From a virus, in the IMG/VR virus record IMGVR_UViG_3300046491_000313, positions 1 to 64,000 of that record: a stretch of 64,000 nucleotides of DNA, one strand, 5' to 3'. Numbering within the stretch: the stretch's first letter is position 1; every line of letters begins with the position of its first letter. The notes under the pieces were generated by a model. The model saw only the letters and a program-made list of their open reading frames with translations. It was not told the origin of the DNA and did no database searches. Position numbers and translations under genes: made by a program. Positions 8,688 through 58,634 of the stretch are shown piece by piece.

Positions 8688-8937
8688 CCTTGTGTTCGAT
8701 TAAGTTCGCTACGCTTAACCCGTTCATTTAAGAACCGCTGTATATCGCTATACAGAGCAGACTATCTCTTTACCTTTTCAGGTATCCCCCGTTTCGTGCT
8801 GCTTAGCACTACGTCTTTCGACTAGTCGTTACACTTTTTCTAGCTAACTAGAACTTAGCTCGGTATTGTCTTAAAAAGATTTTCACCGAATTAGAGGGAT
8901 TTTCGATACGAGTTTCTTCGTAAAGGGGCTACGTTTA
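8688..8937 (-). ncRNA. Group I intron 2 in nrdE (no ORF)
   Basis: This 250 nt intron lies between GTG GAC CAG TTG GGT and TCA CGA CAA, joining DQLG to SRQGSIAVYLD. P1 pairs GGGT with GCCC. The intron ends in G. P4-P5 (TTCGGTGAAAATCTTTTTAA, then GACAATACCG) and the P7 strands around AACGACTAGTCG are visible. It carries no endonuclease gene and is smaller than intron 3, so any mobility would need an outside nuclease. Confidence 0.87.
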
Positions 8938-9064
8938 ACCCAACTGGTCCACGCTAACAGCTGTATTGTTGAGCTGCTTTATCCACGGCGTTGTTCCTGA
9001 AGATACGCCTTTAAATCCTTTAATATCGCTTCCTCGTGACCTTACAAAACCGAGGTACATACCA
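8938..9064 (-). CDS. nrdE: nrdE exon 2
   Basis: This 127 nt exon encodes residues 261-303 (GMYLGFVRSRGSDIKGFKG, then VSSGTTPWIKQLNNTAVSVD and QLG). The sequence matches the conserved alpha-subunit segment that follows GGGI and precedes RQGxxAVYLD. It has no start codon of its own in frame and is too short to be found as an ORF. It is recognised only by protein homology and splice-site logic. Confidence 0.88.
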
Positions 9065-9325
9065 CATTACCTTCGCATAAGTTCGCTACACTTACACCGC
9101 TTTCGCTGCTACGTGTCACCACGCAGATGAGACTATATCACGATCTCTTATGAGACCCCCTGCTTTTCGAATACCAATCGCTTGTATTCTACTCTCTTTC
9201 GAGATAGTCGTTAGACATTTATGTTTTTCAACAATTTAGTACGGGATTGTCTTAAAATTTTAAGAGTTTCCCCGTTTAACAGGGTTATTCGATACGGATC
9301 ACTCCGTAAAGGCACAGGTTAATTT
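9065..9325 (-). ncRNA. Group I intron 1 in nrdE (no ORF)
   Basis: This 261 nt intron has its 5' exon ending GGCAT, which pairs over five bases with GTGCC just inside the intron, with U-G at the splice site. The intron ends TAATG. Removing it joins NGGGI to GMYLGF. The P7 strands TAACGACTATCTC and GATATAGTCTC and the shared strand TTTACGGAG-GATCCGTATCG are visible. The 5' region is nearly the same as in intron 3, so the two probably share a recent ancestor. Confidence 0.88.
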
Positions 9326-10107
9326 ATGCCGCCACCGTTTTTACTAAGGTTCGCTACATCTGTATTGCTGTCGTAAATGCCTCGTAAACTATCGTCAACT
9401 GTATCGATAAAACAACTCGATAGCTGTCCGTATGATAAACCTGCTGATTTAAGCGTTGGAGTAGCGACTGTCATATACATATTCGATAACGCCCAGTACG
9501 CTTCTTTTACGAGATTTAAACGATCATTCTTTTCTTCTCGCATAAGTGCCATTGCGATAACCAACCAACGTTCTTGAGGTAACTCATATACGTTTTTATC
9601 GTGGTCTGTTGCAAGATAACGATCAGCTAACGTTCGCAGTCCGATATAGTTGAAAAGAAGATCACGTTCAGGTTCGATAATCTTACCGATTTCCTTAATC
9701 TCTTCTTTATTATAATCGCGAAGAAGTTTTCCATCGTAGATTCCTTTTGTTGCGAGTGTTTTAATTAACCCGTAGAAATCTCCGTACTTTTCAGAAGAAT
9801 CGTAGCTTCGATTTTTACTCGCTTTTTTGTAAAGAGAACGAAGGAACACTTGTTCTGCTACGTACGTCCAATCGGGGTGTTGTTCGGTGTCTGTTCCGAT
9901 GTAATCAAGCGCGTTTAAGATCAAGTTGTTCGTGATTACACTTGCCTTTACTTCGCTTTTACCTCGAATGGCGTTTAAGTTCTTTTCGATATACTCATCT
10001 TTATTTAAATGAGGGAAACGTCCTGTAATCTCTTCGATAAAACTAATTAATCTCAGTTCATCGAAAGGGAGTTGACGTGTTCCGTTGTTTTTAGTAATAA
10101 CGGTCAT
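9326..10107 (-). CDS. nrdE: nrdE exon 1: ribonucleotide reductase class I alpha subunit, N-terminal part
   Basis: The alpha subunit reduces NDPs to dNDPs with the NrdF radical. Four exons (10107-9326, 9064-8938, 8687-8241, 7227-6313) sum to 2271 nt and one 756-residue frame, normal for the family. Exon 1 begins MTVITKNNGTRQLPFDELRL with an ATP-cone-like start. It carries the first active-site Cys (QLSSCFIDTVDDS) and ends NGGGI in a codon split by the intron. The conserved protein reads straight through all three junctions, so this is not a pseudogene. The motif at 10168-10209 upstream is a candidate promoter. Confidence 0.94.
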
Positions 10108-24190: not shown

Positions 24191-24452
24191 CCGTATTCAG
24201 GTTTTCGGACGGGGCTGTTCGTAATTACTCTCTCTCTTTTTCTTCAGCAAAGAATATCATTACCTTTTGCTTGAATAAATGAACGAAGTGTCTTTCTATC
24301 GCGAATTGTATTACTTGTAATACGGTTCGCAATATATTATTACTACATTCAGTTATTACTACATTCAGTCGTTACTACGTTTAGTTATTACTAATATCGC
24401 AGTTTTGCGTATTCGTGAAAACCGTATCCGTGAAAACCGTATCCGTGTTTCC
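24191..24452. repeat. Repeat-rich element, copy A (candidate origin or packaging-type site)
   Basis: It holds, in order, CCGTATTCAGGTTTTCGGAC (24191), a hairpin GCGAATTGTATTAC..GGTTCGC (24301-24330), three and a half 16-nt iterons TATTACTACATTCAGT (24338-24397), and three 15-nt units of GTATCCGTGAAAACC (24409-24452). The same order recurs at 49352-49620 between terL and terS. The 3' part overlaps the end of the winged-helix gene, whose repeats encode the C-terminal TDTVFTDTVF. Confidence 0.8.
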
Positions 24453-24776
24453 TGAATGCGGTGACTTTAAATTGTTTAAATTTGGATTTTCAAAGATATA
24501 ATAGTTGTATCCGCTGAAGTTTCCGTCAATTCGAATCTCTTCTCTAAAGATGTATCCCGCTTCCATTAATTCCTTTATTCCGCTATAAATAGAAGAACGC
24601 CCCTCGGTACAATGTTTAACAATATCATTTACTTGTAGTTTCCAATAATCAGGTTTTGTTAGAAGATAACCTAGGATCCCTTTTGCTTTCATTGATATGC
24701 GACTGTCTTCAAAAAAACTGTTTTCCATTCGTGTATAAGTTGTATCTTGCTTTGAAACGCGTGTAATTAACTCCAC
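24381..24776 (-). CDS. Winged-helix replication-initiator-like protein
   Basis: This 131-residue protein resembles the helix-turn-helix (HTH_36/DnaD-type) domain of phage replisome organisers: SRISMKAKGILGYLLTKPDY followed by VNDIVKHCTEGRSSIYSGIK and a wing. The start is a GTG with AAGGAGG 8 nt upstream. Its 3' end is built over the 15-nt and 16-nt repeats. In many phages such proteins bind repeats inside or near their own gene to open the origin, so autologous binding is a reasonable inference. Confidence 0.78.
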   Translation of the reverse strand: MELITRVSKQDTTYTRMENSFFEDSRISMKAKGILGYLLTKPDYWKLQVNDIVKHCTEGRSSIYSGIKELMEAGYIFREEIRIDGNFSGYNYYIFENPNLNNLKSPHSGNTDTVFTDTVFTNTQNCDISNN

Positions 24777-24910: not shown

Positions 24911-25762
24911 TTAAAACCACGAATACTTATTGAAACTTGTCTCTTTCCATGCAATCATCTTTAATTCTTCAACTGTCAAATAATGTAAGCTTTTAAATTT
25001 ACGACCTGTCTCCTTTTCAAATTTTATAATAATCGAAATATAATGCTCCTGTACTTGTTCGTTTTGGAAGATAAAAAACACTTTGCGATCTAAATAATGT
25101 AACTTCCATAATTTCATCATAATTACTTTCTCATTCCGTTTTTTCCTTTCTACTTCGATAAACGATTGTTTTTTACATCTTTTTAATTCATATAGTACAA
25201 AATCTGGTATGATGTATTTAGGCAACTGATCGTTACCGAACAAACGTTCCCATTCCTCTTGTACTTTTTTAGATCCGAGTGCAATGCGTCGTTTATCATC
25301 AGGATTCGGTTGAACTTCGATTTCATACTTTCGCGGTTTGAATATTCGTTGAATGTCTTTTATGATATCCAAGAATAAATCCTTTTCGCGGTTAATCTTT
25401 TCGATTCCAATCGCTTCTCGCCAAACGTTCACTACTTTCATTGTAGGACGATAATTGAAAAGCTGATCCGATACAATAACGCCTAACGGCTTTCCAGGTT
25501 CCGCTCCTTCAACGGTAATAAAAATAAATGGCTTTGTATTCTCCGTTCCTACTAAACGGAATTCTGCGTATGTACACATCGCATAATCTAATTCTTTAAA
25601 TCGGTTATCTTTTACGTTAATTGACTTGACGAATTCATATACGTGTCTATTCTTCTTACTAATAATCGTCATTCCTCGCCAACTATACGTAGGGAGCATT
25701 TCATCTTCGCCAAACTCATAAAACTCGTTGTTTGTAAATGTCGTAACGTGTGTCATAATCAT
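24911..25762 (-). CDS. Replication-relaxation-like protein
   Basis: This 283-residue protein has the features I know from plasmid-type replication-relaxation proteins (Replic_Relax family): PKYIIPDFVLYELKR followed by SFIEVERKKRNEK. The genes around it, the iterons and the winged-helix protein are also plasmid-like. Its N-terminal half (YSWRGMTIISKKNRHVYEFV) could form a winged helix. The ATG at 25762 has GGGAGG 9 nt upstream. Assignment is from motif memory, not a search. Confidence 0.6.
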   Translation of the reverse strand: MIMTHVTTFTNNEFYEFGEDEMLPTYSWRGMTIISKKNRHVYEFVKSINVKDNRFKELDYAMCTYAEFRLVGTENTKPFIFITVEGAEPGKPLGVIVSDQLFNYRPTMKVVNVWREAIGIEKINREKDLFLDIIKDIQRIFKPRKYEIEVQPNPDDKRRIALGSKKVQEEWERLFGNDQLPKYIIPDFVLYELKRCKKQSFIEVERKKRNEKVIMMKLWKLHYLDRKVFFIFQNEQVQEHYISIIIKFEKETGRKFKSLHYLTVEELKMIAWKETSFNKYSWF

Positions 25763-25948
25763 ATCGATACACCTCCCTCTTTTAACAAATTATAACAGAT
25801 GTCCGCTATATGTGTAGAAAATTCTGGCGAATTTTTTCGGTATATAGTCTCCGCTACCGCTACGTTCTAATACCGATAGTTTTTGAATATCGCGCATAGC
25901 GTAAAGCAGCAGTATGTCAACAAAAGAATGAGTTTTACACAAAAAGAG

Positions 25949-26207
25949 GTATCTGATTTTATAATATGTTTAATTTTAAGCGACGAACTCTATGTCGGGA
26001 GCGAATCTAAAAGTTTAAAAATGAGGGCATTTTGCTAATATTCCATATTCCTTATTTTAATTTATACCTAATCAGATATTTGATTTTTATAAAAAGTGCT
26101 AAATAGATATCTAAATTAGAAAATCCTTGAAATAGATATCTTATTTACTAAATGGCATAAATCAGATATTTAGTTTACGAAAAATCAAAAAATCAGATAT
26201 TTATTTT
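25949..26207. repeat. Six iterons with about 30-bp phasing
   Basis: Units such as AAATCAGATATTTAGTTT and AAATAGATATCTAAATT start at about 26070, 26101, 26130, 26159 and 26190, spaced 29-31 bp, close to three helical turns. A half-like copy at 25949 is 121 bp upstream, about four more periods. Each is a loose palindrome around AGATAT. The last unit covers the -35 of the plus gene at 26256, so a regulator or initiator would bind there. Confidence 0.8.
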
Positions 26208-26235
26208 TACACAAATGGAATTTTTCTGGTATCAT
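26206..26235 (+). promoter_or_regulatory. Promoter of the 26256 gene
   Basis: TTTACA and TATCAT are separated by 18 bp. The -35 lies within the last iteron, implying repression or autoregulation by an iteron-binding protein. Confidence 0.6.
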
Positions 26236-26255
26236 TTAGAAAAGGGGTGATGGAA

Positions 26256-26669
26256 ATGGCAAAAAATAATAATAACAAAATTGACTCAAATAGTGTAGCT
26301 TGGAAACAAAACTTTTTAAATGTTTTCAAAGGAATTAAGCAATGGAATTTTTGGGGAGGTTCTAAACAATCGTATCTTTTACATCTTCCTGAAGAAGTAC
26401 ATACATTAGCGAAAAAGGATTTAGAAAAAATCTTCGCAAACTTTTCCGATATGGATCCGAAAAAACGAGAACTAACACTTCGTAAGTATTTTACGATTCA
26501 CATTATGGTTTCGATGGGTATGACGCACTATAACGATAAGGAAAAGAAATTTGAACGATTAAATAAAACGGACTTGATGGAATCGTTTCTAAAAGTACAT
26601 TCGAGTCAGCTTGAAGATGATTTTGGTTATGTCCGCGATCGTTCTCGTAAAAAAGATAAAAGCGAATAA
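26256..26669 (+). CDS. Unknown protein next to iterons
   Basis: This 137-residue, soluble, Lys-rich protein starts at an ATG 8 nt after AAGGGG. It contains LPEEVHTLAKKDLEKIF and a Lys/Arg-rich end (RDRSRKKDKS). No family is recognised. Its position behind iterons and on its own strand, opposite the replication-relaxation gene, is that of a plasmid copy-control, partition or repressor gene. That is inference from context only. Confidence 0.65.
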   Translation: MAKNNNNKIDSNSVAWKQNFLNVFKGIKQWNFWGGSKQSYLLHLPEEVHTLAKKDLEKIFANFSDMDPKKRELTLRKYFTIHIMVSMGMTHYNDKEKKFERLNKTDLMESFLKVHSSQLEDDFGYVRDRSRKKDKSE

Positions 26670-26686
26670 CACTCGCTTTTTTTTTC
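26658..26686 (+). terminator. Intrinsic terminator after the 26256 gene
   Basis: AAAAGCGA..TCGCTTTTTTTTT forms a hairpin and a U-run overlapping the 3' end of the gene. Confidence 0.85.
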
Positions 26687-28062: not shown

Positions 28063-30276
28063 TCAGGAAATAATCACACGAAGAGTTGCGCTAGCACTAC
28101 CGTTATTCGTAATCTTAACGCTTCCAGAAGTCATCGTTACGTCAATTAAATCGCTATCTTTTACATTGCGATATTCTCCTGCCGTTGCCGTTGCGACTTG
28201 AATCGAAACTACAGGGTTGGATTTCGTTGTCGAAATCGATACATTTCCTGCTGCTGCAATCGTTTGTGTACTAACTTCTTTCGCGCCGATTTTAATCCAT
28301 TTACCAGCTGTTGTACCATAAACGTTAATATCTTTAAAGTACGGTTTATATGATGATAAATGCGTAGCCGTTACGTTAAAACGAATATCTTTTGCTTTAA
28401 CAGGAGTCCATGAGAACGTTTTATACGCACCAGAAGTCCACGTTTCAGCCGTATTGCTATAAACAGTTACCCAAACATCAGACTCGTTTAAAATAGAAAT
28501 ACTCCAGTTCTTCGCGTTATATCCCGCTGAGTCAGCTCCGTACGCCAAAACGTCACATGAGTCGATTGTCAACACGTTTCCGCCAAAAGTCAACCCTACG
28601 TACTTCATTCCCGAACCTGTGTTCGCCGCAGGAGCGAAGAAAGTTGTTGTCGAGTTATCGAATGCTTTATAACTTTCCGTCCCCGTATTCTCTGAGTTCG
28701 AATACGCTGTGAATCCGCTAGCAGGATCAGCATTAGCCGTCATTGTCGGAGACTTTTCTACTTTAACAGGATCCGCCGTGCTATCATATACATAAATATC
28801 ACTAGCGTTTGCTGTAACGAGTGTTCCGTGTGGAGCCGTTTCAGGAAGTAAGCTTGAGTTTGCGTAGTTTTTAACGCCTTGTGTATCGACTGCTGTTCCG
28901 TTTAATAACAGTTTTCCATTTCCGTCTGTCGATAAGCCGTCTAACACTGTTTTATTGCTGTGCGTGTGAAGTTCAGCATGCGTATGATTCCCTTCTGAAA
29001 CCGTTCCAGCAGCCGTACCGAAATTTTTATTAAATGCCGTACCTTTTGTCGCAATTTTTGGTTCGTATAAAGCGTCTGCTTCCGTTTGTGTTAAACCATC
29101 AGAAGTACCAACGCTACCGCCACTACCAGATACTTCGATAAAATTATACACAGCGCCAGGTAATAGTTGAATTTCATCAACGATAACACGACCTTTCGAT
29201 ACACTTTCTACACTCGTAACGACTAATCGAAATTCTGTCGCATTCACTTGCGTAGGTAAATCGAATGTTTTTTGTTCCATATCTCCCCAAACTGCGTGAC
29301 CTAAGTCGTAGTTACCTGCTACTTGCCAAATTCCATCAGCGTCTTTATACTCAAAGCGGAATGTGTTCGGGCTACAACTATCGTCTGTACCTGAAGCACG
29401 AAGAGACAATTGTCCTACAGTTTTAGCGGTAGGCACTTTAATATAGAAGTAAAGCGGTAATGTTTGAGATAAAAATGCATCAGCGTGAGCAGACGAAGGA
29501 GCGTTATCAGCAAATGCTTTATAAACCGCACCAGGAGCGCCTGTATCTACGTTTGCTACCGTCATCGCTTCATCTGAATAAGCGCCTACTACATAACCAT
29601 CTTGACTGTTTGACGTTAACGCAGGCATAATATCAGTCGTACTTTGACCTTGTAGTTCGCTTACGTACAATTTATGCGTATCTTCTGTATGAACGAATTG
29701 GTTTTCACCTGTCGCTTGAACATCAGCTAATGTTGCATACGTTGTGATTCCTCTGTCGCCTAAATCTTCTAAATCAGTAAGACGAGAATTGTGTTCGGAT
29801 AATTCCGTTTGAATAGCCGAATCATCGAAAGGTGTTGCTGCAGGCGCTCCTTCTAATGTCGTAATACGTTCGTCTAAATCTGCGTGCGTATGATCAACTG
29901 CTGCTTTTCCGTTTAATGCTTCCGTTAAACCAGTCACGTCTCCTAATGTATGTGTATGAGTCGTATTAGCTTTTTCGCTAATTAAACTTTTTACCGAAGT
30001 ATCATCATATACTTTCGTTTCCACACCGTCAATAAGTACGTTTCCGTTTGTACCTGAAGCTTGGACGGTTGAACCGCCTTCTCCTGTTGGACGAGCCTCT
30101 AAATCCTCAATACGATCTTTTAATCCCGTTTCATCATAAACTTTCGTCTCTTCTCCGTTTACTTTGATATTACCGTTAATATCTGAAGGAGTAACGGAAG
30201 AGCCTCCCCCTACGGAAGCTCCTTCGCTTTCTAGAATGTTTTGAACAATACTTTTAATACTCGGTCTGTACCCCAT
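28063..30276 (-). CDS. Large tail-fibre / receptor-binding protein
   Basis: This 737-residue protein has an N-terminal repeat region of paired NGN-type strands (NGNIKVNGEETKVYD and NGNVLIDGVETKVYD). His-x-His motifs (NTTHTHTLGD, VDHTHADL, GNHTHAELHTHS) of the type that bind metal in trimeric fibres follow. Two discoidin/coagulation-factor-like beta regions come after them. The last part carries a beta-rich C-terminal end. It sits at the end of the late operon, a usual place for host-specificity fibres. Confidence 0.82.
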   Translation of the reverse strand: MGYRPSIKSIVQNILESEGASVGGGSSVTPSDINGNIKVNGEETKVYDETGLKDRIEDLEARPTGEGGSTVQASGTNGNVLIDGVETKVYDDTSVKSLISEKANTTHTHTLGDVTGLTEALNGKAAVDHTHADLDERITTLEGAPAATPFDDSAIQTELSEHNSRLTDLEDLGDRGITTYATLADVQATGENQFVHTEDTHKLYVSELQGQSTTDIMPALTSNSQDGYVVGAYSDEAMTVANVDTGAPGAVYKAFADNAPSSAHADAFLSQTLPLYFYIKVPTAKTVGQLSLRASGTDDSCSPNTFRFEYKDADGIWQVAGNYDLGHAVWGDMEQKTFDLPTQVNATEFRLVVTSVESVSKGRVIVDEIQLLPGAVYNFIEVSGSGGSVGTSDGLTQTEADALYEPKIATKGTAFNKNFGTAAGTVSEGNHTHAELHTHSNKTVLDGLSTDGNGKLLLNGTAVDTQGVKNYANSSLLPETAPHGTLVTANASDIYVYDSTADPVKVEKSPTMTANADPASGFTAYSNSENTGTESYKAFDNSTTTFFAPAANTGSGMKYVGLTFGGNVLTIDSCDVLAYGADSAGYNAKNWSISILNESDVWVTVYSNTAETWTSGAYKTFSWTPVKAKDIRFNVTATHLSSYKPYFKDINVYGTTAGKWIKIGAKEVSTQTIAAAGNVSISTTKSNPVVSIQVATATAGEYRNVKDSDLIDVTMTSGSVKITNNGSASATLRVIIS

Positions 30277-47555: not shown

Positions 47556-47875
47556 CTTTACCTTCGAGTAAGGTCGTTACCCTTACCCCGTTCCCTAACG
47601 AACCGCTACAAGCTTTCCTTGTAGAAGAGACTATATCTTCGGTAAGCTTCCTTATACCGTCTCCCGTTTCGAGTTCACTTGAACCCTACGTCTTTCGACT
47701 AGTCGTTGAACGTTCCTCATATCTCGTCAGACTTAGAGGCTTCGCTGCTGATTTCCCATCGTGCCTATCCTTTTTATTTTTGACCATCACGCTTGTCGTT
47801 TCCAACTACGTTGTGGTTAAAAAGTTTTTAGGGTGTTCCAGCAATTAGAGAGATTTAACGCGAACCAGTGTGTTA
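47556..47875 (-). ncRNA. Group I intron in the portal gene
   Basis: This 320 nt intron interrupts KHAD-PTAYGPDL. P1 pairs the exon end CGCGGAT with GTTCGCG inside the intron over seven positions, with a U-G at the splice site. The P7 strands are CAACGACTAGTCG (near 47700) and GATATAGTCTC (near 47627). The intron ends in G. It has no ORF, so its mobility would depend on an outside endonuclease. The exons add up to one 555-residue frame. Confidence 0.9.
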
Positions 47876-48844
47876 ATCCGCGTGTTTCCAAAGAATGTAT
47901 GAGATTTGTGTAAGACGGTCATTAATCGCAGCAAGTAAATCCGAAATAACCTCTACTAAACTCATACCTTGCCATTCTGTATCAATCGCAGAATAAGGTG
48001 CATGAAATAAAAGCGGCATTGGTACGCCTGTTTCGACAATATTCTTCTTGTTTTCTGCTTGGCGTCCAGTATCGACTAAATCACCGATTTTATAAACAGG
48101 GATCTGAATACCATAATCCATGTTAAGGTCAAACTCGTTTAATTGGAATTTGTGGAAGAAGATATACCCTGGAATATGGCGCTCTACGTAAAGGTAAGGC
48201 GTTCTTCCTGTTGTAATCAACTGGATATTGTTCTTTTCCAACGCTTCATCACGTAAATCGAAAGGATTATACGGATCAGCGATTCCAAGTGAATCTTCGT
48301 ATTGAACATAAGCAACGTTTACCGCTTTAAAACTTTTCGCATTCTTCCCGCTTTCTTCAGGGAATACGTAGTTTGGGTTAACTGCTTCGATGATACTTTC
48401 CATTGGAACCGTGTCGGGAATTTCTCCGCCGAATGCTAATAGCTCGGAAAAGTCTTGTCGATACCCATAACGTACTTTTAACCACATATCTCCACGGAAT
48501 GCTCCGCTTGTCCCAATATCGTGTAAAAGACTCGTTAAATCGTTTTCTTCTGCTAAGCGATTGACAGCGTCCTGAGAAGCTCCAGATTGCCCGCTCTCGA
48601 ACACAGGAGGCTCGCCAACTAATAGGTCTGCAGGCTTCTGGGAAAGCATCTGAACGACGTTTACAGCCGTGTAGAGCTTACGTAACTGAGGAGCATGCTT
48701 CGACTCTTTTAAAAGTGCTTGTGCGCGGTTATATAAATCTTGTAAATCCTTCCCTTTGTAAATACGTTCACCTTTTTGATATTTAGCGATACGTTCGATA
48801 TCTTTTTGTGGCGGGAACTGTTTACCCGTTTCGAATAATGCCAT
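47876..48844 (-). CDS. Portal protein exon 1
   Basis: The portal ring is the DNA entry gate of the head. The exon has 323 codons beginning MALFETGKQFPPQKDIERIA. It contains YKGKDLQDLYNRAQALLKES, VQMLSQKPADLLVGEPPVFE and the terminal NDRLTQISYILWKHAD, all typical of SPP1/XkdE-type portals. It is read straight after terS. The frame stops at a TAA in the intron, so splicing is needed to make a full portal. Confidence 0.88.
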
Positions 48845-49351: not shown

Positions 49352-49620
49352 CCGTATTCAAGTTTTCGGACGAACCGTTCTTTGTTACTCATTCTATTTC
49401 TTTTCTTTTAGCATTTTATATAACCTTTTGCTTACATACGTTCGTATGATATTTAATGTTTTCTATCGCGAATAGTATTACTTGTAATACAGTTCGCAAT
49501 ATATTATTACTACATTCAGTTATTACTACCTTTAGTTATTACTACACTTAGTTATTACTAATATGGCACTTTCACGTATCCGTCGAACACGTATTCGTGA
49601 AAACCGTATCCGCGAAACTG
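49352..49620. repeat. Repeat-rich element, copy B, between terL and terS
   Basis: It holds the same order as copy A: CCGTATTCAAGTTTTCGGAC (49352), a hairpin GCGAATAGTATTAC..AGTTCGC (49468-49497), three and a half 16-nt units TATTACTACATTCAGT (49505-49560), and three 15-nt units GTATTCGTGAAAACC (49576-49620). No gene fits here. Being beside terS makes a packaging-site role likely. Confidence 0.8.
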
Positions 49621-51427: not shown

Positions 51428-51472
51428 ATTTGACAAAAAAATGTTGACAAAATGTAACATCTCTACTACAAT
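51428..51472 (+). promoter_or_regulatory. Recombinase promoter with an operator-like inverted repeat
   Basis: TTGACA (51444) and TACAAT (51467) are 17 bp apart. Immediately upstream TGTCAAAT..ATTTGACA forms an 8-bp inverted repeat (51410-51435 area), between the terL and recombinase starts, so it may control both. Confidence 0.65.
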
Positions 51473-51545
51473 AAGTATAACGAGTAGGGGTAATTTTTTA
51501 CTTTTACGTGTATTTACTCATAAAATTGACTGGGAGGTGGTAGAT

Positions 51546-52358
51546 ATGAGTACAAAAAATGAAACACAAGAAATGATGACACTTTTAAGTGAAATGATGA
51601 CGAAGTTAAACGCGATGGAAGAGAAAAACATGAAGCTCCAAGAGGAGCTTGAGAAAATTACAGTTAAAAAAAGTCGAAATAAGTCAAAAAAAGCAAAAAA
51701 GAATAAATCAGACATACGCAAAACGCAGCCGATTAAAGATCTCGATACATATAATAACTTTTTGAACGTATTAAAGCCGAGAGACCGCTTAATGTGCTTA
51801 ATCGGTATCGCTTCTGCTCTTCGTATTGGCGATATCATCATTCTTCGCCGCAAAGATGTAGTAGATGAGTCGGGAGTAATTCGTATTACAGAATACGGGC
51901 AAGAAAAAACGTATAAAGAAACGAATGTAGTGTTTGGTGATGAGTTTTCCGCAGAAATTCGCGACCTGCTTGATGAGCTTTCGATTACCGAGGATAATCA
52001 GTTATTGTTCGCAAGTCAAAAGCTTGATGAGTTCGGTAATCCAAAACCAATTAGCCGTCAGCAAGCGTGGAACATTATCACCGCCGCCGCTATTAAGATT
52101 GGTGTAAGAAAACGTGACAGCGACGGTAAGTTAGTTGGACTTCGTTTAGGTTCGCATAGTTTACGTAAAACATTTTCATTTTGGTTTTATACGGTTAATT
52201 CGGAAAAAGGTAGAGCAGCTGAAGCTCTTGCGTATTTAACGAAGATTTTGAACCATTCAGATCCAGCGGTAACTCTTCGTTATATTGGAATCGAGCAAGA
52301 GAAAATCGAGGAAGGTCAAGTTGCAACGCACAACGCATTAAAGCGTACAAGAGGTTAA
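51546..52358 (+). CDS. Tyrosine recombinase / integrase
   Basis: This 270-residue protein has the tyrosine recombinase residues in order: ALRIGDIIIL (Arg), SHSLRKTFSFWF (HxxR, about 200), LNHSDPAVTLRYIGI (H237, Tyr246). The N-terminus is a charged coiled-coil (MEEKNMKLQEELEKITVKKS) instead of a long arm-type DNA-binding domain, as in plasmid resolvases or small integrases. I choose the start at 51546 (GGGAGGTG). It reads away from terL. Integration or dimer resolution is possible. Confidence 0.87.
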   Translation: MSTKNETQEMMTLLSEMMTKLNAMEEKNMKLQEELEKITVKKSRNKSKKAKKNKSDIRKTQPIKDLDTYNNFLNVLKPRDRLMCLIGIASALRIGDIIILRRKDVVDESGVIRITEYGQEKTYKETNVVFGDEFSAEIRDLLDELSITEDNQLLFASQKLDEFGNPKPISRQQAWNIITAAAIKIGVRKRDSDGKLVGLRLGSHSLRKTFSFWFYTVNSEKGRAAEALAYLTKILNHSDPAVTLRYIGIEQEKIEEGQVATHNALKRTRG

Positions 52359-52361
52359 GGT

Positions 52362-52874
52362 CTATTCGTCCTTGGCTTCTTTTTTCGGTTTATACCAAGG
52401 TTCTACATCGCTATCTCTCTCCGTTTCTTTCATTTTTTCGTTGAATATTGCGATAACTTCAGGATACTTTGCTTTAAACTCGGCTTCTGTCAAAATATGT
52501 CCGAAATTGAACTCGGTATGCTTACGTCCGCCTCTGTAAAAGCGACGAATACGCAATAATCCGACATTTTCTAGTATCGTTAAGTGCTTAGCGCATGTTT
52601 TTCGATTGATTGCAAGTTTAAGAGCGAGACGTTCGATACTAATCCATGCTTTCCCGTACATTTCGCTATCGTCCGAGTGATTTTGATGTTGTTTTAGCGC
52701 GCGGTACACGTCTAACGTTGCAGGAGTTACTCGAATCGAAGGATCTTCAGAATATCCTAGCAAGTTATACAGCAACAATTCATTTTCCATCGTTACAAAT
52801 CCTCCGCTATAAATAAGCGTTGCTTTGTCGTTCTTTTTTCGTTTTTGGAATCTCTTCTCGTAGTAGTTTGTCAT
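52362..52874 (-). CDS. Winged-helix-type DNA-binding protein
   Basis: This 170-residue protein has a helix-turn-helix region (ISIERLALKLAINRKTCAKH, then LTILENVGLLRIRRFYRGG) typical of HTH_36-type winged helices. It converges with the recombinase gene, with only 3 nt between. The start at 52874 has AAGGAG. Possibly a transcription regulator or a replication protein. Confidence 0.72.
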   Translation of the reverse strand: MTNYYEKRFQKRKKNDKATLIYSGGFVTMENELLLYNLLGYSEDPSIRVTPATLDVYRALKQHQNHSDDSEMYGKAWISIERLALKLAINRKTCAKHLTILENVGLLRIRRFYRGGRKHTEFNFGHILTEAEFKAKYPEVIAIFNEKMKETERDSDVEPWYKPKKEAKDE

Positions 52875-52875
52875 T

Positions 52876-53211
52876 TTATTTATTCTCCTTACGTTTATTT
52901 TCTTGTCTTTGTTTCGCATAACGGACGAACTCTTCTATAGATAATCCTCCGTGTAGAAATTCGAAGTGTAAAGCAAAAATATCGTCATCTTCGTGGTCTA
53001 ATCCAAAGCAATCGAACGCTACCTTTTCGATTCTCGTTAATTCCTCTGTTAAAAAGTCGGGAGAGTGTGTTGAAACGTTTAAACCGAAGAAATCTCCTAC
53101 CTCATCAATTCGTTTAGCAAGCGACTTTCCTATCGCAAGACATTCATATCCGATTCTTTCTTTATAACGACTATCAAAATCGATTATTTTCGCAGTAGTA
53201 GATAAAGTCAT
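52876..53211 (-). CDS. Hypothetical protein
   Basis: This 111-residue acidic protein (FDCFGLDHEDDDIFALHFEF) has a basic C-terminal tail. It lies 1 nt before the winged-helix gene, suggesting joint function. No family is recognised. Confidence 0.68.
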   Translation of the reverse strand: MTLSTTAKIIDFDSRYKERIGYECLAIGKSLAKRIDEVGDFFGLNVSTHSPDFLTEELTRIEKVAFDCFGLDHEDDDIFALHFEFLHGGLSIEEFVRYAKQRQENKRKENK

Positions 53212-53221
53212 CGTAAAAATC

Positions 53222-53266
53222 TCCTTAAATTAAAAATACGCCATTTTAGGCGTTATTTACGTATGT
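53222..53266 (-). promoter_or_regulatory. Leader hairpin before the 52876 gene
   Basis: On the minus strand ACGCC-TAAAAT-GGCGT followed by ATTTTTA lies between the promoter-like motif and the ribosome site. It may be an attenuator or repressor site. Confidence 0.5.
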
Positions 53267-53267
53267 A

Positions 53268-53308
53268 TAATTCTATATAAGGGACACCCTGAGTTTTAAA
53301 AATGATCA
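53268..53308 (-). promoter_or_regulatory. Promoter-like conserved motif, copy 4 (degenerate)
   Basis: TGATCATTTTT, then 9 nt, then GGTGTCCCTTATATAGAA. The left arm and the GGTGT start have the same spacing as in copies 1-3, though the right arm differs. Confidence 0.45.
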
Positions 53309-53340
53309 GAAAATTTTTTAAGAGAGGACTTTCGAGTACA

Positions 53341-53767
53341 AAAAAAGCCGCCTGGGTATCTAACGATACTAGACGGTTTACAAAGGGGTAAGAATAAAGA
53401 GAAAATCGGAAAGACACTACGTATATAATTGTTAACAGTATTTAACAGCGAACAACACGAGTGTCACACTAGAGATTTCGTTAAAACACCTTTCCCTTAC
53501 GATAAGACTTCGGAATTATTCATTCGGAATCAACTACGATAAGACTTCGAGATAACTGCTTCGAGATAACTGTCGAAATTATCAAGATTATCGGTAAGAC
53601 TACGTTAAGACTTCGAATAGACTTCGATAGGAGTAACGATAGCAACCCCCTGAGTTCGAAAATACTACGTATTATTTTTCTACAGCAGAGAGCGGGAAAT
53701 GGGTGCCGACTTGGGGGCGAAAAAATTTTGTCGAAAAAATATTAAAAATTTCGTGTTTTTTGCGCCA
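53341..53767 (-). ncRNA. Candidate non-coding RNA, about 430 nt
   Basis: A near-consensus promoter (TTGACT-17-TATAAT, 53774-53802) and a strong terminator (AACCGTC-TAGTATC..GATAC-CCAGGCGG then TTTTTTT, 53341-53378) bound a minus-strand region with no credible gene. One 41-codon TTG frame has no proper ribosome spacing. The middle is filled with CGAAGTCTTA-type repeats. No tRNA-like or known riboswitch is recognised. It may be a structured regulatory RNA or a sponge. Confidence 0.55.
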
Positions 53768-53773
53768 TTAATC

Positions 53774-53802
53774 ATTATAAAGCAAAATTAAAAGAAAGTC
53801 AA
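53774..53802 (-). promoter_or_regulatory. Strong sigma-A-like promoter of the candidate ncRNA
   Basis: TTGACT and TATAAT are separated by 17 bp on the minus strand. Upstream is a very AT-rich region like an UP element. Confidence 0.75.
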
Positions 53803-53879
53803 GAAAAATTTAAAACTTTTTTTATTTATCTTGTTAAAACTTGACAAAATTTGATTTAGTCAAATTAATTTTATTTATT

Positions 53880-54290
53880 TATGCAACAATATGATCAATA
53901 TGTCAATACCCTCACGCCTACTCGATACAATATCAAGGGTATGTTATGCCGTCAATGTGTACGGGTAGAATGTGGCGGGGTACCCCCTCGAGTTTATAGA
54001 CACACACCCAGCGGAAGAAAGCAAGTGTTTAAACGATAACCAATCGACACCCTCAACGCTACCCAATCGCCATCATCTCGACACCAGCACGCCACCCCTC
54101 CCCTATCTCTCGATATATTCGCCACCTTATCGCCTACCCTCTCGCCCTCTCCTCTCGGTATATATCCCGCTACCCCCGTTTATGTAGCTCCGCCCGTTTA
54201 TGTCACTCTTCGAAACGATACCGCATCTCTTTTCGATACCCTCACGAATAAGGGATCGTTTAACCTTCTTTTATATAACGAGGAGAAAAG
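53880..54290. other. C-rich, low-G region without clear genes
   Basis: It contains a GGGGTACCCC palindrome (53978), repeats ATACCCTCACG (53909 and 54237), CCCGTTTATGT twice, and runs of pyrimidines. The only long frame over it (53972-54187, plus) has no ribosome site and biased composition. It could be a replication or packaging landmark, but nothing proves it. Confidence 0.4.
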
Positions 54291-54291
54291 C

Positions 54292-54426
54292 ATGATCGCC
54301 TTTTCGTTTCCCTCTCGTTCTCCTCTCGATTCTTTACGATGTTACAAATCGTCGCCATCAAGTCCCGATCTTTTCTTTTGTTTTTTCTCTTTCTTTTCCT
54401 TTTTTGCTTGGTCTTGTTTTACATGA
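54292..54426 (+). CDS. Possible 44-residue peptide
   Basis: An ATG follows AACGAGGAGAAAAGC, a good ribosome site. The product begins MIAFSFPSRSPLDSLRCYKS and ends in a Phe-rich hydrophobic stretch (FFCFFSFFSFFAWSCF). The composition may simply reflect the pyrimidine tract. Low confidence. Confidence 0.3.
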   Translation: MIAFSFPSRSPLDSLRCYKSSPSSPDLFFCFFSFFSFFAWSCFT

Positions 54427-54848
54427 TTCTTTTTTATTTCTTTTCTATTGCATAATGAAGAAATGAAATTTCGAATTTGCGATCTTTTATGTTTTTATTT
54501 GTTTATATTTATTCATTTCTTTGTATATTTATAAGGTCTTGCAATATATATTTTTTCTTATGTCTTTCGTTATTATGTCGGTTAATTTTATTTAATGAGT
54601 ATAAAGCGGATCACCTTTCGGAAAAAAACGGTTTTACTCAAGGAAATTTTTACTCTTACTCACCCATAAGCATGTAAAATGCCCGTATATTTTCACCGTT
54701 TACTTATTTTTTGATCTTTGTTTTTTCGGTGAATTCTAACCCGTTTTTTATCCTAAAAATGGAAAAATGAGCCCTTTTCGTTGTGTCGTTTTTTGTCTAA
54801 TTTTTAGTACTATTTACATATTGACTTTTTTATTTTATTTTTAACTTT
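54427..54848. other. 422 bp AT-rich gap before the first cassette
   Basis: I see no credible gene or clear repeats here. A short plus-strand frame (54477-54677) has no good ribosome site and a biased Phe/Ile/Tyr content. Toward the right end it merges into the first promoter cassette. Confidence 0.4.
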
Positions 54849-54849
54849 T

Positions 54850-54948
54850 CAAAATGTCAAAAATAAAATACTACTTTTTTACTATTTATTGTTGACAATT
54901 GTTAAAAACTGGCTATAATGAAAGTATGAAAAAGGGAGAGTGATAAAA
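54850..54948 (+). promoter_or_regulatory. Promoter cassette 1
   Basis: The ~100 bp block contains AAAATGTCAAAAATAAAATA, TTGACA (54892), TATAAT (54914) and GGGAGAGTGATAAAA before the ATG. It is nearly identical to the other four cassettes. The spacer is 16 bp. Confidence 0.88.
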
Positions 54949-55474: not shown

Positions 55475-55500
55475 AAGGCTTAAACGCCTTTTTTCTTTTT
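55474..55500 (+). terminator. Terminator after cassette-1 genes
   Basis: AAAGGC-TTAAAC-GCCTTTTTTC with a T-run. Confidence 0.87.
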
Positions 55501-55598
55501 AAAAAGTCAAAAATAAAATACTACTTTTTTACTATTTATTGTTGACAATTGTTAAAAACTGGTTATAATAAAGATATATAAAAGGGAGAGTGATAAAA
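55501..55598 (+). promoter_or_regulatory. Promoter cassette 2
   Basis: Nearly the same sequence as cassette 1, with TTGACA (55542) and TATAAT (55564) 16 bp apart. Confidence 0.88.
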
Positions 55599-56513: not shown

Positions 56514-56560
56514 TTGTTTAAATTATTTTCCATAGTACGATTTTACTATATTATTTCAAA

Positions 56561-56655
56561 AAGTCAAAAATAAAATACTACTTTTTTACTATTTATTGTT
56601 GACAATTGTTAAAAACTGGTTATAATAAAGATATATAAAAGGGAGAGTGATAAAA
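56561..56655 (+). promoter_or_regulatory. Promoter cassette 3
   Basis: TTGACA (56599) and TATAAT (56621) 16 bp apart, with the shared upstream block and GGGAGAGTGATAAAA. The repeated sequence TTATTTTCCATAGTACGATT upstream (56523) is like those at 57976 and 58797. Confidence 0.87.
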
Positions 56656-57218: not shown

Positions 57219-57316
57219 AAATGTCAAAAATAAAATATAACTTTTTTACTATTTATTGTTGACAATTGTTAAAAACTGGTTATAATAAAGATATATAAAA
57301 GGGAGAGTGATAAAAC
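57219..57316 (+). promoter_or_regulatory. Promoter cassette 4
   Basis: TTGACA (57259) and TATAAT (57281) 16 bp apart with the shared flanks. Confidence 0.87.
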
Positions 57317-57637
57317 ATGAAATATAAAAATAATGATGTATTAGAAAAATTTTTAAACGGTGAAGAAGCGACAAACGGGCGAAATTTACATAGCGAAAAA
57401 GACGGAGACGCGATCCGCCTCGTTAATTATTCGACAATTATAGCAAAAATAACGATCGACGGCGTTTTATTGATTAACGAGTTAAAATATAGTGTGACAA
57501 CGACAAAGCATCAAAATTTTTTAAAACGAAACGGCGGCGCATTTATCGAGTTATCCGAATACGATGTACGCATGATCAACAATTGGAAAAAAGAACGCGT
57601 TCGATTAATCTTTAAAAATGGTGGTGTAAACGTATGA
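57317..57637 (+). CDS. Unknown early protein, 106 residues
   Basis: This basic protein includes GRNLHSEKDGDAIRLVNYST and ends KKERVRLIFKNGGVNV. It overlaps the next gene by 4 nt. No family recognised. Confidence 0.7.
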   Translation: MKYKNNDVLEKFLNGEEATNGRNLHSEKDGDAIRLVNYSTIIAKITIDGVLLINELKYSVTTTKHQNFLKRNGGAFIELSEYDVRMINNWKKERVRLIFKNGGVNV

Positions 57638-58189: not shown

Positions 58190-58286
58190 AAAGTCAAAAA
58201 GAAAATAACACTTTTTTACAATTTATTGTTGACAATTGTTAAAAACTGGGTATAATTAAAGTATAGAAAAGGGAGAGTGATAAAAC
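58190..58286 (+). promoter_or_regulatory. Promoter cassette 5
   Basis: TTGACA (58229) and TATAAT (58251) 16 bp apart, with the flanks slightly more divergent. Confidence 0.85.
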
Positions 58287-58634
58287 ATGAAAAAAGAAAA
58301 AGAAGCTTTCAAAATTAATTTTTGTAAAACGTGGGGAAAAGATGGATCCGTGTATAACGGATATATAAGAATGAATCAAGATCTTTTCGATGAGGTTATA
58401 AACTACATAAAAGAACAAGACGGCGAGGCGTGGCATTACTATAAATTTCATATTTTAGAAAATAAAGATTTTACACACAATGAAGAAAAGAATCAAATGA
58501 TCTATTTTACATCTTTAGAATTTTTAACGGTATTTTTTGGATACGCCAAGCATAAAAAAGGGTTACCTTTTAACGAAAAAAGATTTTTTGCATTAAAAAA
58601 CGCTTTTATCGTTGTCGATTTAGAAAAGGCTTAA
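58287..58634 (+). CDS. Unknown early protein, 115 residues
   Basis: It begins MKKEKEAFKINFCKTWGKDG and contains LEFLTVFFGYAKHKKGLPF. It is a charged soluble protein, last gene of the plus block, with a terminator after it. No known domain. Confidence 0.7.
   Translation: MKKEKEAFKINFCKTWGKDGSVYNGYIRMNQDLFDEVINYIKEQDGEAWHYYKFHILENKDFTHNEEKNQMIYFTSLEFLTVFFGYAKHKKGLPFNEKRFFALKNAFIVVDLEKA

Follow-up and report, generated by a model that had tools for sequence, protein, structure and literature searches.

A five-unit dyad array, probably an operator array, at the promoter of an orphan gene in a temperate Bacillales-type phage

Analysis of IMG/VR record IMGVR_UViG_3300046491_000313 revealed an array of five units at 26070–26206, each a 16-bp dyad of the form AAnnAGATATYTnnTT, beside the promoter of a small orphan gene (the 26256 gene). 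Judging from the sequence, we favour on balance an operator array that is specific to this lineage, probably autoregulatory, and part of a self-contained transcription unit. The kind of system is ordinary; the candidate binder is new. A centromere-like site, a lysogeny switch and a replication origin were weighed as alternatives and are, in that order, progressively less likely.

Source record and phage relatives

The window, the whole 64,000-nt stretch of DNA that was analysed, comprises bases 1–64000 of a 67,683-bp record, which lacks terminal repeats and may be incomplete. The record is temperate siphophage-like and of Bacillales type, encoding terminase, portal, tail and lysis proteins, an integrase, primase, helicase, helicase loader, A-family DNA polymerase and ribonucleotide reductase; part of these protein identities were assigned by reading translations. 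The integrase is a tyrosine integrase (51441–52358). Megablast of 20–40 kb against GenBank phages found no close relative. The DnaB-like helicase showed 42–55% identity to distant relatives, namely Bacillus phages phi18-2 and KLEB27-1, Sporosarcina phage Lietuvens, Enterococcus siphophages and prophages on Brevibacillus and Cytobacillus contigs, and the related loci of the latter two genera sit in chromosomal contigs. Rfam matches identified three group I introns, all on the minus strand (8738–8947, 9109–9335 and 47606–47900), the last of which adjoins the portal gene.

The five-unit array and its significance

The first-pass annotation had placed five unit starts at 26070, 26101, 26130, 26159 and 26190, and all were found there, with exact AAATCAGATATTTA only at 26159 and 26190, AATCAGATATTTG at 26070 and AAATAGATATCT at 26101 and 26130. 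With the AGATATYT core as reference, centre-to-centre spacings were 31, 29, 30 and 31 bp (Table 1), and the core of unit 2, AGATATCT, is a perfect palindrome. A five-link chain of identical 6-mers at 28–32 bp arose in none of 2000 dinucleotide-preserving shuffles of 25780–26255, the shuffle maximum being 3. Such a five-unit chain occurs once in the window and is absent from all 90 of the related phage loci, which amount to about 1.4 Mb.

Table 1. Coordinates of the array, the outlying site and adjoining features
Feature	Coordinates	Strand	Description
Divergent gene	24911–25762	-	283 aa; not Replic_Relax by profile tests
Promoter-like sequence of 24911–25762	25789–25818	-	TCTACA, 18 bp, TGnTATAAT
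Promoter-like sequence	25936–25965	+	Spacer contains the probable sixth site
Probable sixth site	25943–25959	-	AAATCAGATACCTCTTT; inverted; 13.2 bits
Unit 1	26070–26085	.	Dyad AATCAGATATTTGATT, centre 26077.5
Unit 2	26101–26116	.	Dyad AAATAGATATCTAAAT, centre 26108.5
Unit 3	26130–26145	.	Dyad AAATAGATATCTTATT, centre 26137.5
Unit 4	26160–26175	.	AATCAGATATTTAGTT, centre 26167.5
Unit 5	26191–26206	.	AATCAGATATTTATTT, centre 26198.5; in contact with the -35 hexamer
26256 promoter	26206–26235	+	TTTACA, 18 bp, TATCAT, preceding TG (extended -10)
Small orphan gene	26256–26669	+	137 aa
Terminator-like hairpin	26658–26680	.	Both strands; overlaps the end of the 26256 gene

Pairwise identity among the units was 0.81 over core offsets -4 to +8, and in the 7 bp preceding the sites it was 0.21, compared with 0.32 expected by chance. 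The invariant columns, counted from the start of AGATAT, were -4, -3, 0–5, 7, 11 and 12. Since conservation is limited to the sites, separate binding-type sites appear to be what is under selection. The sequence does not give the appearance of a recent tandem duplication.

A spacing of close to three helical turns, as suggested, requires about 10.1 bp per turn; at 10.5 bp per turn the first and last sites would lie about 170 degrees apart, on nearly opposite faces. With spacings of 29–31 bp, the sites would share one face only if local twist is near 10.1 bp per turn. At 19% G+C, the array region is among the most AT-rich in the window. Intrinsic bending through phased A-tracts was considered and rejected for lack of signal, no 10.5-bp phasing being seen in AAA/TTT runs.

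A further copy at 25949 had been counted as the first of six iterons in one register. The phasing stands for five sites, and this copy is a probable inverted, out-of-register outlier with one core mismatch; it lies 127 bp ahead of unit 1, a distance not divisible by 30. Outside the array, no other match in the record scores as high (11.8 bits for the next), and 7 among 500 shuffled versions of the 300-bp flank reached its score (p about 0.014), a moderate level of significance.

No comparably strong site was found elsewhere in the record, so the action of the sites would be local. Copies of AGATAT upstream of early genes at 55–57 kb were rejected as further sites on their low scores; they belong to a promoter block that surrounds the transcription start and occurs repeatedly. 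This near-identical block of about 90 bp recurs at 54850–54940, 55500–55590, 56560–56647, 57220–57317 and 58190–58287, comprises TTGACAATTGTTAAAAACTGGTTATAAT, an AT-rich upstream element and an identical ribosome-binding site, and precedes five small plus-strand genes that are probably a co-regulated early set. Between the 52362–52919 gene and the plus-strand early genes, the 53200–54900 interval showed little coding signal and contains the short repeats CTTCGAGATAACTG and GATAAGACTTCG.

Phasing conserved in relatives, one of three points on which the earlier proposal was to be judged, was not observed, as the array is absent from them. Both the array and the 26256 gene are missing from the 90 related loci and from the whole named relatives, a joint absence that is expected if the two were acquired together as one cassette. 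Pattern scans of IMG/VR returned unrelated simple repeats or single pairs and no comparable cluster beside a similar gene, and the region gave chance-level matches only in BLASTN searches of phages and plasmids.

The 26256 gene and its product

The 26256 promoter (TTTACA-18-TGgTATCAT) scores 10/12. The array abuts its -35 box, and unit 5, whose centre lies at about -43.5 relative to an inferred start near 26242, is in contact with the hexamer. A ribosome-binding site, AAGGGGTG, lies at 26242–26249, and the coding signal of +0.30 bits per codon, present in one frame only, matches that of the phage's other genes. The gene is the sole evident plus-strand gene before about 51 kb and opposes nearly all of its neighbours. 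Given this orientation and its own promoter, ribosome-binding site and terminator-like hairpin, it looks like a self-contained, opposed unit of moron or lysogeny type.

Homologues of the 137-aa product were found neither in Pfam, PHROGs, NCBIfam, PDB sequences and GenBank phages, nor in PLSDB plasmids, IMG/VR and GTDB genome contigs, nor in 399 genomes from the order of a Cytobacillus host. Recurrent weak matches sharing a short 'IFA..NFSD..PKKR' string, which we take to be mostly TrmB-like tRNA methyltransferases, were rejected as chance. The RHH_1 and Arc profiles were silent against the protein, profile searches revealed no HTH, and no initiator family matched. Single-sequence AlphaFold models were weak (pLDDT 47 and 67): the full-length model showed a strand at 40–43 and helices at 46–61 and 68–80, at pLDDT of about 50, and the fragment model showed two helices and no strand. 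Foldseek searches with the models returned no fold match. By eye, residues 36–90 resemble a ribbon-helix-helix (strand, helix, helix), a likeness that is unproven.

Operation as an operator array

The array comprises multiple copies of one dyad at a promoter, beyond chance, which is the make-up of a promoter-proximal operator array. A protein that binds DNA as a dimer would occupy the five dyads, the 26256 product being the simplest candidate, and occupancy of the site touching the -35 box would set the output of the promoter. Autorepression by occlusion of polymerase is slightly preferred over activation, and the position of unit 5 would allow either. Through cooperativity, the upstream sites may make the response steeper; the inverted site near 25950 may take part in a loop or silence the second promoter-like sequence. 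As for the earlier suggestion of a cooperative operator, the anatomy of tandem dyads abutting the -35 box of a small, self-contained, opposed gene fits; we infer the cooperativity, as we do the identity of the binder and the sign of control.

Several features sit less easily with an operator array. The 26256 product has no recognised DNA-binding domain, and the sites may be bound by a different protein of the phage or its host. About 14 bp separates the 16-bp sites, such that adjacent dimers are not obviously in contact, and five sites over 140 bp exceed the needs of simple autorepression.

The divergent gene and the replication genes

The 24911–25762 gene had been described as replication-relaxation-like, a label that profile searches did not support: Pfam Replic_Relax (PF13814) matched nothing in the record at E <= 10. 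Against a profile built from 15 proteins, taken from Bacillales genomes and phi18-2 gp32, the gene product scored 1 bit by HMMER and 2% probability by hhalign. A short PD..F..LY...FIEV.R likeness to phi18-2 gp32, which itself matches the Replic_Relax profile, was rejected by this purpose-built profile. Genes downstream in the same orientation include an HTH_36 initiator-like gene that has a tandem repeat of its own (24337–24447), a DnaC-like loader, helicase and primase.

Initiator-like genes are located at 24381–24776 and 52362–52919. The latter, on the minus strand, adjoins the integrase gene 30 kb from the helicase, and related prophages carry weak homologues of its product at the head of their replication module. 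Two copies of a roughly 230-bp element lie in the window (24200–24450 and 49370–49620); the element contains a GCGAAT...TTCGC-type hairpin, 3.6 copies of TTATTACTACATTYAG and CGTATCCGTGAAAAC repeats. The first copy adjoins the 24381–24776 gene, and the second separates the genes for the terminase small and large subunits. A role as an origin or packaging signal is possible.

Alternative readings

The main rival is a centromere-like maintenance site, on the ground that the corresponding slot holds actin-like or FtsK/replication-relaxation genes in two related phages; we nevertheless consider it unlikely. The 26256 protein would form a partition complex on the array for an extrachromosomal prophage and repress its own promoter, working as a one-gene system or together with a motor that comes from the host or has escaped recognition. 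In known centromeres, arrays of repeats sit at the promoter of the operon that encodes the binder, which also acts as repressor (PMC5016525), and here a repeat array likewise lies at the promoter of a small gene with a putative binder role. In both relatives this slot, which lies between the lysis and replication modules, contains maintenance genes of plasmid type: an actin-like gene (Pfam ALP_N, 58.3 bits) and a small gene in Lietuvens, and FtsK/SpoIIIE and Replic_Relax genes in phi18-2. Bacillus phage B83 is a plasmid prophage that encodes ParM and a ribbon-helix-helix protein and has iterons within the 165 bp upstream of parM (PMC6669507). Against this, no motor NTPase was found, as PF13614 (ParA), PF17989 (ParM/Alp) and PF00091 (tubulin) were silent across the 67.7-kb record, a result that is not final for a record that may be incomplete. 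The tyrosine integrase and the presence of related loci in chromosomal contigs of Brevibacillus and Cytobacillus also count against it. A bolder version, to which we give little credence, is that the 137-aa protein founds a new DNA-binding family and, working without an NTPase, binds the three-turn-spaced array as both autorepressor and centromere, forming a single-gene maintenance or immunity cassette in the slot.

Genes opposed to the lytic direction are often lysogeny genes, and the 26256 product might be a lysogeny repressor in a genetic switch, with sites between divergent promoters shutting the 24911-and-replication operon and tuning the repressor gene. Divergent promoters do lie on either side of the site region, and the 24911 gene is followed by the replication genes described above. 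We regard such a switch as distinctly unlikely, given that the leftward promoter overlaps no site (the nearest, at 25950, is about 130 bp off), that strong sites are absent from early promoters elsewhere, for example the five copies of the repeated promoter at 54.8–58.3 kb, and that profile searches of the 26256 protein revealed no HTH. Highly improbable, in our view, is that the units are the iterons of a replication origin, recognised by an initiator. The array shares with iteron plasmid origins its repeats in an AT-rich region, here near replication genes. Unlike those origins, it consists of dyads at three-turn spacing and has no cognate Rep-type initiator alongside; the 26256 and 24911 products match no initiator family. 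The DnaA box TTATNCACA has only four exact copies in the window, the nearest at 29144 and none within 2.9 kb of the array, and GC skew shows no turn at 26 kb. The initiator-like genes lie elsewhere, at 24381 beside another tandem repeat and at 52362, the latter with relatives in related phages. The form of a plasmid origin, as first suggested, thus finds no support in the absence of a Rep-type initiator and a nearby DnaA box.

Comparison with known systems

Omega heptads are contiguous and ParR iterons close-packed; the array described here differs in its 16-bp dyads about 30 bp apart, and has neither a recognisable ribbon-helix-helix domain in the candidate binder nor a partner NTPase. It resembles the omega system of pSM19035 and the ParG/ParR type in the tandem arrangement of sites at a small gene's promoter, with a binder expected to repress itself (PMC5016525), and array length may likewise set affinity (PMC5016525). 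Repeats before a small module also characterise the ParMRC-like locus of B83 (PMC6669507) and the actin-like pair of Lietuvens, the latter in the same lysis–replication slot. Unlike in these two, there is no actin-like gene here and the array precedes a small orphan gene rather than an NTPase gene. In Lietuvens (L021 1600–1718), TCATACG-type repeats lie directly before the actin-like gene and look like a parC-type centromere. The FtsK/SpoIIIE and replication-relaxation pair of phi18-2 also occupies this slot; here, by contrast, the 24911–25762 gene falls outside Replic_Relax in profile tests and no FtsK-like gene adjoins it.

Implications

If the 26256 protein binds the array, it would represent a new small DNA-binding family with a well-marked recognition site. 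Comparison of the slot, which holds an actin-like gene in Lietuvens, FtsK and replication-relaxation genes in phi18-2, and the array with its orphan gene here, would then show related phages swapping unrelated maintenance or lysogeny cassettes between their lysis and replication genes.
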